The notes beneath the pieces are model-generated. The model saw only the letters and a list, made by a program, of their open reading frames with translations. It was not told the DNA's origin and ran no database searches. A stretch of 64,000 nucleotides of DNA from an uncultured Chloroflexota bacterium (GTDB lineage: Bacteria > Chloroflexota > Anaerolineae > UBA4142 > SHND01), in the NCBI GenBank assembly GCA_937870825.1, contig CALMZO010000059.1:1-64000 (forward strand). Direction: 5' to 3'. The stretch's first letter is position 1. Every line of letters starts with the position of its first letter. Position numbers and translations under genes: made by a program. This document shows, piece after piece, positions 12,282 to 55,365 of this stretch.

Positions 12282-13022
12282 TCAGAATTGGTCCCGTGCG
12301 CGTTCTAACAACTCGACAACTTCTGAATCCATAATTTGTTCAAAGTCCTCATAAAAATGTCCCACCGCCACAAACGGTTCGGGCGTGTCGAGCAAAACGA
12401 GTTCGTCGCACTCGGCGCGCAAATCCTTTACCACTTGACGCGGCGCGACGGGAACCGCGAGAATCACGCGCGCCGGTCTGCTGTGCTTGAGCGCGCGGAG
12501 TGCCGCGATGGTCGTCGCACCGGTTGCAATGCCGTCGTCCACCAAAATTGCAATTTTGTTGTCCAACGCGAGCGATGTTTTGTTGCGGCGATAGAGTTGG
12601 AGACGACGTTGAATCTCAAGCTTTTGATTCTCGCATTCCAGTTCGACAAGTTTTTGTGGAATGTGCAGTTGGTGAATCAAGGCTTGGTCGAGAAACACCG
12701 TGCCGTCGCTTGCCACAGCGCCCAGCGCAAGTTCTTTATTGAACGGCGCGCGAATTTTTCGCACGATAAAAACATCCAGCGGCGCGTGCAACACGCGCGC
12801 GATTTCCGCCGCGACGACAACGCCGCCGCGTGGGATGCCCAACACAATTACATCGCGTAGGGGCAATCCCTTGCGGTCGCCCGTCACAATTGCGTCGCGT
12901 AGGGGCAATCCCTTGTGGTCGCCCGTCACAATTGCGTCGCGTAGGGGCAATCCCTTGTGGTCGCCCAAGATTTTCGCGCCAAGTTGTTGTCCGGCATCGC
13001 GGCGATTTTGAAATTGTGTCAT
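12282..13022 (-). CDS. Phosphoribosyltransferase with a repeat-derived N-terminal insertion
   Basis: 246 residues from the ATG at 13022. The PRPP-binding loop is AILVDDGIATGAT near residue 160, and the family segment VIVLGIPRGGVVVAAEIA lies just after the repeats, so this is a type I phosphoribosyltransferase of the 'predicted phosphoribosyltransferase' group rather than a named purine enzyme. Residues about 20-60 are three near-identical 14-residue units (consensus GDHKGLPLRDAIVT) encoded by a 42-bp DNA repeat. The start overlaps the stop of the upstream membrane-protein gene as ATGA, so translation is probably coupled. Confidence 0.82.
   Translation of the reverse strand: MTQFQNRRDAGQQLGAKILGDHKGLPLRDAIVTGDHKGLPLRDAIVTGDRKGLPLRDVIVLGIPRGGVVVAAEIARVLHAPLDVFIVRKIRAPFNKELALGAVASDGTVFLDQALIHQLHIPQKLVELECENQKLEIQRRLQLYRRNKTSLALDNKIAILVDDGIATGATTIAALRALKHSRPARVILAVPVAPRQVVKDLRAECDELVLLDTPEPFVAVGHFYEDFEQIMDSEVVELLERARDQF
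12857..12966. repeat. 42-bp tandem repeat inside the phosphoribosyltransferase gene
   Basis: GTAGGGGCAATCCCTTG followed by (T/C)GGTCGCCC occurs at 12857, 12899 and 12941, a 42-bp period that keeps the frame. The same half-palindrome occurs at 50160 and, as a full palindrome, at 53599. Confidence 0.85.
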
Positions 13023-44575: not shown

Positions 44576-45040
44576 TTAATCTTGGTTCAACGCCTTCAGC
44601 GCGAGGCGCACGCTGTCTTTGGCAGACACACGGCGGCGCACGTCAATCAGTTTGCCTTGTTCGTCAATGACAAAGTGACTGCGAATGAGACCGATGTACG
44701 TTCTGCCGTAATTATTTTTTTCGCCCCACGCGCCGTACAGTTCTGCCACCTTGTGGTCGGGGTCCGCGAGCAGCGGGAAATTCAAATCGTATTTCTTTTT
44801 GAATTTCACATGCGATTCCACACTGTCGGGACTCACACCCAACACCACCGCGTCCGCGCCTTGCATTGCGGCAAAGTTGTCGCGAAAGTCGCACGCCTGC
44901 TTCGTGCAGCCCGGCGTGTCGTCTTCGGGATAAAAATAGAGCACAACTTTTTTCCCTTTGAACTGCGAGAGTTTTACGGTTTCGCCGCTGTCGCTTTGCA
45001 ATTTGAAATCCGGCGCGCTGTCGCCAATTTCCAATGCCAT
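44576..45040 (-). CDS. bcp: Bacterioferritin-comigratory protein-type peroxiredoxin
   Basis: 154 residues. The N-terminus GDSAPDFKLQSDSGETVKLSQFKGKKVVLYFYPEDDTPGCTKQAC holds the peroxidatic Cys (in PGCTKQAC, which also contains the typical second Cys five residues on). It reduces peroxides with thioredoxin as donor. The ATG at 45040 follows AGGAGC; the reading frame extends upstream without support. It contrasts with the second peroxiredoxin at 54377-54877, which has TGA at this position. Confidence 0.92.
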   Translation of the reverse strand: MALEIGDSAPDFKLQSDSGETVKLSQFKGKKVVLYFYPEDDTPGCTKQACDFRDNFAAMQGADAVVLGVSPDSVESHVKFKKKYDLNFPLLADPDHKVAELYGAWGEKNNYGRTYIGLIRSHFVIDEQGKLIDVRRRVSAKDSVRLALKALNQD

Positions 45041-53585: not shown

Positions 53586-54380
53586 TCAAATGTGAATCGT
53601 AGGGGCAATGCCTTGTGCTTGCCCAACCGATGGGCGTCCACAAGGGCGCGCCCCTACATTTGCGGTCATTTGCAATTCGACATCAAACACATTTTCAAAC
53701 GCGCGGGCGACGCGTTTGCGTACGTCGTCCATCCCAATATTTTTTTTCAAGGCGCGCGCGAGCGAGGTGACGGGTTTGTCGGGAATGCCGCAGGGAACGA
53801 TGAATTGAAAATGTTCCATCGGCGGGTCAACGTTTAGTGCGAATCCGTGATAGGTAATCCAACATTCGATGCGCGCGCCGATTTGGGCAATTTTTGCTTC
53901 AGGATGAAATTTTTTTTCGAGTGGGTCGTCCGTCGGATTTTCAATCCAAACGCCGACGAGTTTGGAATCGCGTTTGCCGTTTTCATTCAAGCCCGCGCGA
54001 TGTGCGTCGAGCCCAAAACTTTGCAGCGTTTGAATCAAAACATCTTCAAGCGAGCGCACATACCAGCCAACGTCCATCCGAAAATTTCGCAAATCGAGAA
54101 TCGGATAGCCGACAAGCTGTCCGGGTCCGTGATAGGTCACGTCGCCGCCGCGCTCGACGCGAAAAATTTCGATTCCGATTTCATCCAAATATTCGCGCGA
54201 CGCGAGAATGTGTTCCGCGCGCGCGTTGCGTCCGAGTGTGAACACGGGATTGTGTTCGAGCAGGAGCAGCATGTCATTGCCCGCGCCTCGTTTCCGCGCA
54301 TCCACGAGCTCATGCTGCAACGCGAGCGCGTCGGCATACGGCACGAGACCGAGATTGGAAAGGAAAACAGAGCGTGTCAC
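53586..54380 (-). CDS. lipB: Octanoyl-(acyl-carrier) transferase
   Basis: 264 residues. LLLLEHNPVFTLGR, RGGDVTYHGPGQLVGYPILDLR (conserved Gly-Gly-x-x-Thr-x-His) and the C-terminal GIPDKPVTSL are LipB signatures; the Lys and Cys/His active-site regions fit (IAQIGARIECWITYHGFALN, IVPCGI). LipB moves octanoate from ACP to lipoyl domains. The start is GTG overlapping the peroxiredoxin stop (GTGA). The last 20 or so residues (GARPCGRPSVGQAQGIAPT) are encoded by a palindromic repeat at 53599-53657 and do not look like part of the family. Confidence 0.92.
   Translation of the reverse strand: MTRSVFLSNLGLVPYADALALQHELVDARKRGAGNDMLLLLEHNPVFTLGRNARAEHILASREYLDEIGIEIFRVERGGDVTYHGPGQLVGYPILDLRNFRMDVGWYVRSLEDVLIQTLQSFGLDAHRAGLNENGKRDSKLVGVWIENPTDDPLEKKFHPEAKIAQIGARIECWITYHGFALNVDPPMEHFQFIVPCGIPDKPVTSLARALKKNIGMDDVRKRVARAFENVFDVELQMTANVGARPCGRPSVGQAQGIAPTIHI
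53599..53657. repeat. Full REP-like palindrome at the 3' end of lipB
   Basis: The GTAGGGGC start (53599-53606) and GCCCCTAC end (53650-53657) are the outer arms, with CCTTGTG/CCACAAGG inner parts. It belongs to the same family as the copies at 12857 and 50160. It lies within the reading frame of lipB. Confidence 0.8.
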
Positions 54381-54877
54381 TTTGCCGTTTCAATTTCGCG
54401 CAGCGCGTCCAGCAGCTGAACGGTATCAGGCAATTCGCCGGGCTTGAAAAGTTTGAGCCAGCGAATGATGCCCTCTTTGTCAACGATAAAAAGCGAACGG
54501 TCGGGACGTCCGAACTCTTCATTGAACACGCCGTACTGTTTCGATACTTGGCCGTGGGGCCAAAAGTCTGAAACGAGCGGATACGTGATGCCGCCGAGCC
54601 ATTTGCCCCACGCTTCTTTACTTGAAACCGGGTCACAGGAAACAGCCAAAACTTGGCTGTGCAATCTCTCGAATTCATCCATAAAGGCTTCCATCGAGGG
54701 AATTTGGCGGTCTCAGGTCGCGGTAAACGCGAACGGATGAAACGCGATGACGACGTTGTGTGTGCCGCGATAATCGCTCAATTGCGCGTCCACGCGTTTG
54801 ACTTCGGGTTTGGTGACGACGCCGCGCAGTTTGAAATTCGGGGCAGCGTCGCCGATGTTGAGTTTGGGTTCGGGCAT
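54377..54877 (-). CDS. AhpE-type peroxiredoxin with in-frame TGA at the peroxidatic position (probable selenoprotein)
   Basis: Read with TGA at 54715-54713 as residue 55, the frame gives a 166-residue AhpE-like peroxiredoxin. The N-terminus is GDAAPNFKLRG, then VVIAFHPFAFTAT, the TGA codon, DRQIPSMEAF, then YPLVSDFWPHGQVSKQYGVF and DRSLFIVDKEGIIRW. In relatives the residue after FTxx is the peroxide-reacting Cys (TxxC), so the TGA is exactly there (TxxU). Both sides are intact, without frameshift. Without Sec the product would be a 54-residue fragment, or a late restart at 54694. The terminal TGA overlaps the lipB GTG. An imperfect stem (TTCC/GGAA top) lies just 3' of the codon as a possible SECIS, but it is weak. 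A single-base error at a Cys codon is the main alternative. Confidence 0.7.
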
Positions 54878-54960: not shown

Positions 54961-55365
54961 TTATGGGAAATTGCGTGTGCGTCGAATTTCAACGCCTGCC
55001 GATTCTACGACGCCGCGAATCGGCGGGGGCTGTTTGCGAACATAAATCGTCAGCGCGTCCATTGGAAATTTTTCGATGAGCGCATCGGCAATTTTACGCG
55101 CCAGCGCTTCGAGCAGCAACGATTCGGTATCTTCCACCAAATGCCGAATCGTTTTGAACACATCCGAATAACTAATCGTATCTTGGAGCGAGTCGCTGAT
55201 GCCGGCGCGCGTCAAATCGTATTCGATTTCGACATCAACGATGATGCGTCCGCCGACAATACGTTCCTCCTGCGAAACACCATGTTTGCCGTGAAACTGC
55301 GCGCCCTTGAGAACAATTTTGTCTGCCACGATGAAGGATTGTACTTGCAAAATGGCGCGTGTCAA
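54961..55365 (-). CDS. folB: Dihydroneopterin aldolase
   Basis: 134 residues. The core IVLKGAQFHGKHGVSQEER with the catalytic Lys/Glu region, DLTRAGISDSLQDTISYSDVF and LLLEALARKIADALIEKFP is typical of FolB, which cleaves dihydroneopterin in folate synthesis. The first 16 residues may be extra; a GTG near 55329 would start at VADKIVL. Gene order is folB, peroxiredoxin, lipB and icd on the minus strand. Confidence 0.9.
   Translation of the reverse strand: MTRAILQVQSFIVADKIVLKGAQFHGKHGVSQEERIVGGRIIVDVEIEYDLTRAGISDSLQDTISYSDVFKTIRHLVEDTESLLLEALARKIADALIEKFPMDALTIYVRKQPPPIRGVVESAGVEIRRTRNFP

Follow-up and report, generated by a model that had tools for sequence, protein, structure and literature searches.

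The gene at positions 54377 to 54877 (minus strand) of the DNA analysed here, a stretch of 64,000 nucleotides that we call the window, almost certainly encodes an AhpE-like peroxiredoxin (Prx) of the 1-Cys type in which selenocysteine (Sec) replaces the peroxidatic Cys, and it is thus a predicted selenoprotein. A first-pass annotation of the same DNA had proposed a probable selenoprotein, and this proposal was borne out: Sec genes are present in the genome, the in-frame TGA is fixed across the order, and a downstream hairpin occurs in the Sec genes of the family and not in its Cys genes. In addition, the gene was found by computation to be coding on both sides of the TGA and to have an AhpE-like fold.

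The Peroxiredoxin Gene and Its Neighbours

The prxU-like gene encodes 166 aa and is read from 54877 to a TGA stop codon at 54379-54377. There is one internal TGA only, at codon 55 (54715-54713, minus strand), which would encode Sec at the peroxidatic position of a TxxU motif; with this codon translated as a residue, the context is FAFTAT-U-DRQIPSME. The match to the Pfam AhpC-TSA domain (PF00578) scored 104.5 bits against a cut-off of 26 and extended over residues 8-140, spanning the TGA. The earlier description of an intact AhpE-type peroxiredoxin, interrupted solely at residue 55, is therefore correct. The lipB gene (octanoyltransferase; 53586 to 54380, minus strand) overlaps the Prx stop codon in the sequence GTGA (54380-54377), again as previously described, and is linked to the Prx gene in 17 of the 18 orthologous loci. 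The upstream neighbour is a dihydroneopterin aldolase-like folB gene (54961 to 55365, minus strand), retained in all six f1 loci and in several f2 loci.

If the TGA were a true stop, the gene would be either degraded or expressed as a short product accompanied by a separate downstream protein, and an ORF of 105 aa with an ATG start does begin at 54694, downstream of the TGA. However, a product split in this way would be left without the catalytic residue or with only half of the fold, and the TGA falls on the catalytic residue itself, for which the sole alternative in relatives is Cys.

Two other features of the region were recorded. A second peroxiredoxin, of the Cys type (PrxQ/Bcp-like, with a TPGC motif), is encoded 10 kb from the Sec Prx gene at 44648-45034 (minus strand) and has no internal stop. 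The C-terminal tail of lipB consists of one copy of a short repeat (TAGGGGC..CCCTTGTGG.CGCCC) located at 53632-53656 on the minus strand, with further copies at 12900-12924 and 12942-12966 on the plus strand; by chance, no copy would be expected.

Conservation of the TGA and Selection on Both Sides of It

Orthologues at the level of the order were drawn from the 60 nearest genomes, and it was found that all 18 (from 18 genomes representing two families of one order and many genera) have TGA at codon 55. Five of them match independent assemblies of Anaerolineae or Chloroflexota. When homologues were aligned at this codon, as the first-pass annotation had suggested, the 97 related genes, a set covering the class and a few outgroups, fell into 59 with Sec (TGA) and 38 with Cys at residue 55, and nothing else was found at this position. 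The median dN/dS value (NG86) was 0.16 on either side of the TGA, and the part that follows it is therefore selected as protein, in frame with the part before it, contrary to what a true stop would predict. Synonymous variation was modestly lower after the TGA, at 0.34 in codons +1 to +13 compared to 0.43 overall, a difference that we do not rely on.

The genome is a draft of 7.2 Mb in 446 contigs with a completeness of 95%, and so the gene might be that of an ordinary Cys peroxiredoxin whose TGC or TGT was misread as TGA in sequencing or assembly. The first-pass annotation had kept error in consideration because of a TAG and a frameshift within 4 kb; an amidohydrolase gene 2 kb away does contain an isolated TAG, at 56802-56800, but the frameshift was not identified. 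Against an error, the TGA is found at exactly codon 55 in 17 other genomes, some of them independent assemblies, in which the same error cannot recur, and the hairpin described below accompanies TGA and not Cys. We consider an error extremely improbable for the window's gene, and the conservation of the TGA, the restriction of residue 55 to TGA or Cys, and the equal dN/dS values make both error and a pseudogene untenable for the family.

The TAG at 56802-56800 (minus strand) lies exactly between the two His residues of a DAH-x-H motif (NDAH*HLMHGS) in a YtcJ-like gene; the frame is otherwise open on both sides, and the TAG may be a mutation or an error. In one sister species (genome G001, locus L028), about 37 codons are missing from the Prx gene after YPLVA and the frame is shifted, due to a deletion or a misassembly, with the TGA and the hairpin retained.

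Beyond the order, TGA-bearing matches were also obtained in other classes of the phylum, scored by the presence of a TGA irrespective of its codon, and a plasmid collection contained distant Prx sequences only (less than 60% identity). Two genes from Acidobacteriota (L112 and L113) have a TGA at the same catalytic position, in the context FTGG-U-TRE, which indicates that Sec forms of related redoxins reach beyond Chloroflexota.

In a tree of the 97 genes, the 18 order-level genes formed one fully supported branch, all with Sec, and a group of 12 Cys genes was nested beside Sec genes. This placement suggests that the 12-gene group may have arisen by a change from Sec to Cys. At least four Sec/Cys changes are needed on the tree overall, of which two are forced by well-supported branches; the deep order of the tree is weak.

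Selenocysteine Machinery of the Genome

A search of the source genome for Sec genes, proposed along with the first-pass annotation, yielded the complete set: tRNA-Sec (67.9 bits; ARAGORN likewise detected it, with the anticodon TCA), selA (595 bits), selB (359 bits) and selD (354 bits). A Rfam scan of the window at gathering scores gave no matches, as expected because the tRNA-Sec gene is not located there. The presence of Sec in SelD is established, and the selD gene of this genome has its own in-frame TGA, in the context CAGUAAK (L102:1055-1057). In contrast to the genome's Prx hairpin, that of selD, which is itself a selenoprotein gene, has a loop that begins with G (GCU). All 18 genomes with the Prx gene contain tRNA-Sec, SelB above the cut-off, or both; the gaps are tRNA-Sec in G014 and G016 and SelB in G005 and G013.

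The completeness of this machinery argues against a true stop at codon 55, and it also bears on the idea that TGA has been reassigned throughout the genome, for example to Trp or Gly, and is here an ordinary sense codon. We found no point in support of such a reassignment, and TGA terminates both the Prx gene itself and the neighbouring lipB. Furthermore, the homologues have Cys at the site and not Trp or Gly, and the genome encodes SelA, SelB, SelD and a Sec-type tRNA with a UCA anticodon. The probability of reassignment is therefore negligible.

A Hairpin Downstream of the TGA

When the 18 orthologues were aligned from the TGA, a common hairpin was found with an onset about 11 nt past this codon, and RNAalifold recovered it unprompted. 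It consists of a 7-pair stem (alignment columns 15-21 with 45-51) and a 2-pair apical stem (columns 29-30 with 36-37), and in the window this SECIS-like hairpin is located at 54665 to 54701 (minus strand). Paired cells amounted to 92.6%, compared to 83.4% after shuffling, and covariation was 0.285 compared to 0.106; none of 500 shuffles reached either value, and sliding the register of the hairpin gave far lower scores in all cases.

Because this region is coding DNA, stability was evaluated against shuffles of synonymous codons, which leave the protein unchanged. At position +9, the mean z value was -2.1 for the 18 genes of the window's clade and -3.1 for the 41 other Sec genes, whereas it was 0.04 for the 38 Cys genes, and values at most other gene positions were near 0. 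These z values ignore the relatedness of the genes, and so the p value for Sec versus Cys genes (1.5e-15) is descriptive only. A conserved hairpin downstream of the TGA is thus a feature of the Sec genes and is absent from the Cys genes.

The window's own copy has one C.A mismatch (54699/54667) and a z value of about 0.1, that is, it is no more stable than its shuffles, whereas good folds were obtained for the copies of two close relatives, L012 (-16.4) and L028 (-15.8). The published rules for bacterial SECIS elements specify a G within the first two positions of the loop, an MFE of at most -7.5 and a spacing of 16-37 (PMC13188914). Under the apical-G rule, the window's copy reached -5.2 kcal/mol instead of the required -7.5, and without the G rule it reached -10.2. 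Of the 38 Cys genes, 33 also satisfy these rules, which hence do not separate Sec from Cys genes. The folding of the window's copy is unconvincing when taken alone, and so we based the argument from the hairpin on the family. The first-pass judgement that the hairpin is not compelling thus holds for this one copy, but it does not extend to the relatives, in which covariation and the shuffle z values support the structure strongly. The mismatch may be counted in favour of a true stop at codon 55; weighed with the evidence given above for translation through this codon, it leaves that explanation highly improbable.

Predicted Structure and Catalytic Model

The predicted structure had a pLDDT of 95.5, and its top 12 fold matches in the PDB were all AhpE proteins, with 39-42% identity. 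In the PDB sequence search, AhpE was likewise first (E value of 5e-35), followed by the next family at 1.5e-20. Both position 55 and Arg127 are invariant in alignment A4, with Thr52 nearly so. Cys81 is present in 17 of the 18 orthologues (Ser in L019) and sits just past the strand that follows the active-site helix; because of its near-invariance and this position, it could resolve a selenenic acid.

From these features we infer Sec incorporation, peroxidase activity and a source of reductant, as follows. The UGA at codon 55 would be decoded by SelB and Sec-tRNA-Sec, aided by the stem-loop just downstream. The selenolate of Sec55, held by Thr52 and Arg127, would reduce hydroperoxides and be converted to selenenic acid, which would then be reduced by a thiol or thioredoxin-type partner, or possibly by Cys81.

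A more far-reaching proposal has three parts: the gene would belong to an AhpE-like subfamily of selenoproteins in Chloroflexota that is large and has gone unrecognised; the order-level clade of the window would have acquired an N-terminal insert as well as a nearly invariant Cys81, with which the selenenic acid is resolved by forming a selenenylsulfide; and in part of the genus, the stem-loop used for decoding would not follow the apical-G rule that applies to known bacterial SECIS elements. We regard this combination as speculative and rather unlikely to hold in full.

Significance

The Sec-Prx of E. acidaminophilum is the founding member of a family of selenoprotein peroxiredoxins (PF00578, TxxU) that has been listed (PMC13188914), and selenoprotein peroxiredoxins have been counted as 91 proteins in 78 organisms (PMC5029168). 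In the open-access literature, we found no description of Sec forms of AhpE or of a Sec-Prx family in Chloroflexota, and Anaerolineae are little treated in the selenoproteome papers that we found. Judging from the genes compared here, AhpE-like peroxiredoxins with a predicted Sec occur commonly in Anaerolineae, and they appear to be an unnamed branch of the established TxxU family. Standard annotation is likely to break the gene in two at the TGA or to cut it short there, and none of the NCBIfam models covers this gene. With Sec and Cys genes paired in one class, there is a natural set for asking why fast peroxidases keep selenium and how the stem-loop disappears when Sec reverts to Cys.

Comparison with AhpE, PrxU and Selenoprotein Peroxiredoxins

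AhpE of M. tuberculosis (Rv2238c; 1xvw, 4x0x and 5id2) is the best match in both sequence and fold, with TM values of about 0.84-0.91 and an alignment that is nearly end to end. The catalytic Cys of the AhpE structures aligns with the TGA codon, in agreement with the first-pass placement of the TGA at the peroxidatic position of a TxxC motif, and Thr52, Sec55 and Arg127 correspond to AhpE Thr42, Cys45 and Arg116, which serve to stabilise the reactive thiolate (PMC4965862). The predicted protein differs from AhpE by Sec in place of Cys45, Gln58 in place of Glu48, Thr54 in place of the Ile before the catalytic residue, a longer N-terminal half and the presence of Cys81, which AhpE lacks. The AhpE subgroup is marked by a Val or Ile that follows PxAF(T/S) and immediately precedes the peroxidatic residue (PMC5302317), whereas the sequence here is PFAFTAT-U, with Thr before Sec. 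This residue is Thr in most of the window's clade and Ile or Asn in some of its members, and it is Val or Ile in a second Sec clade. Because the window's protein lacks Val or Ile before the catalytic residue, we use the term AhpE-like and do not assign it to AhpE in the strict sense.

The closest NCBIfam model is PrxU (NF040737), which has the same domain; the gene scored 65.7 bits, far under the curated cut-off of 270, and membership in PrxU was rejected. Compared to the selenoprotein peroxiredoxin family, the gene is alike in the PF00578 domain, the predicted Sec at the peroxidatic position, the TxxU motif and a bacterial type of Sec decoding with a downstream stem-loop. It differs in being AhpE-like and not PrxU-like, in coming from Anaerolineae and, compared to its nearest Sec relatives, in having an insert of six residues.
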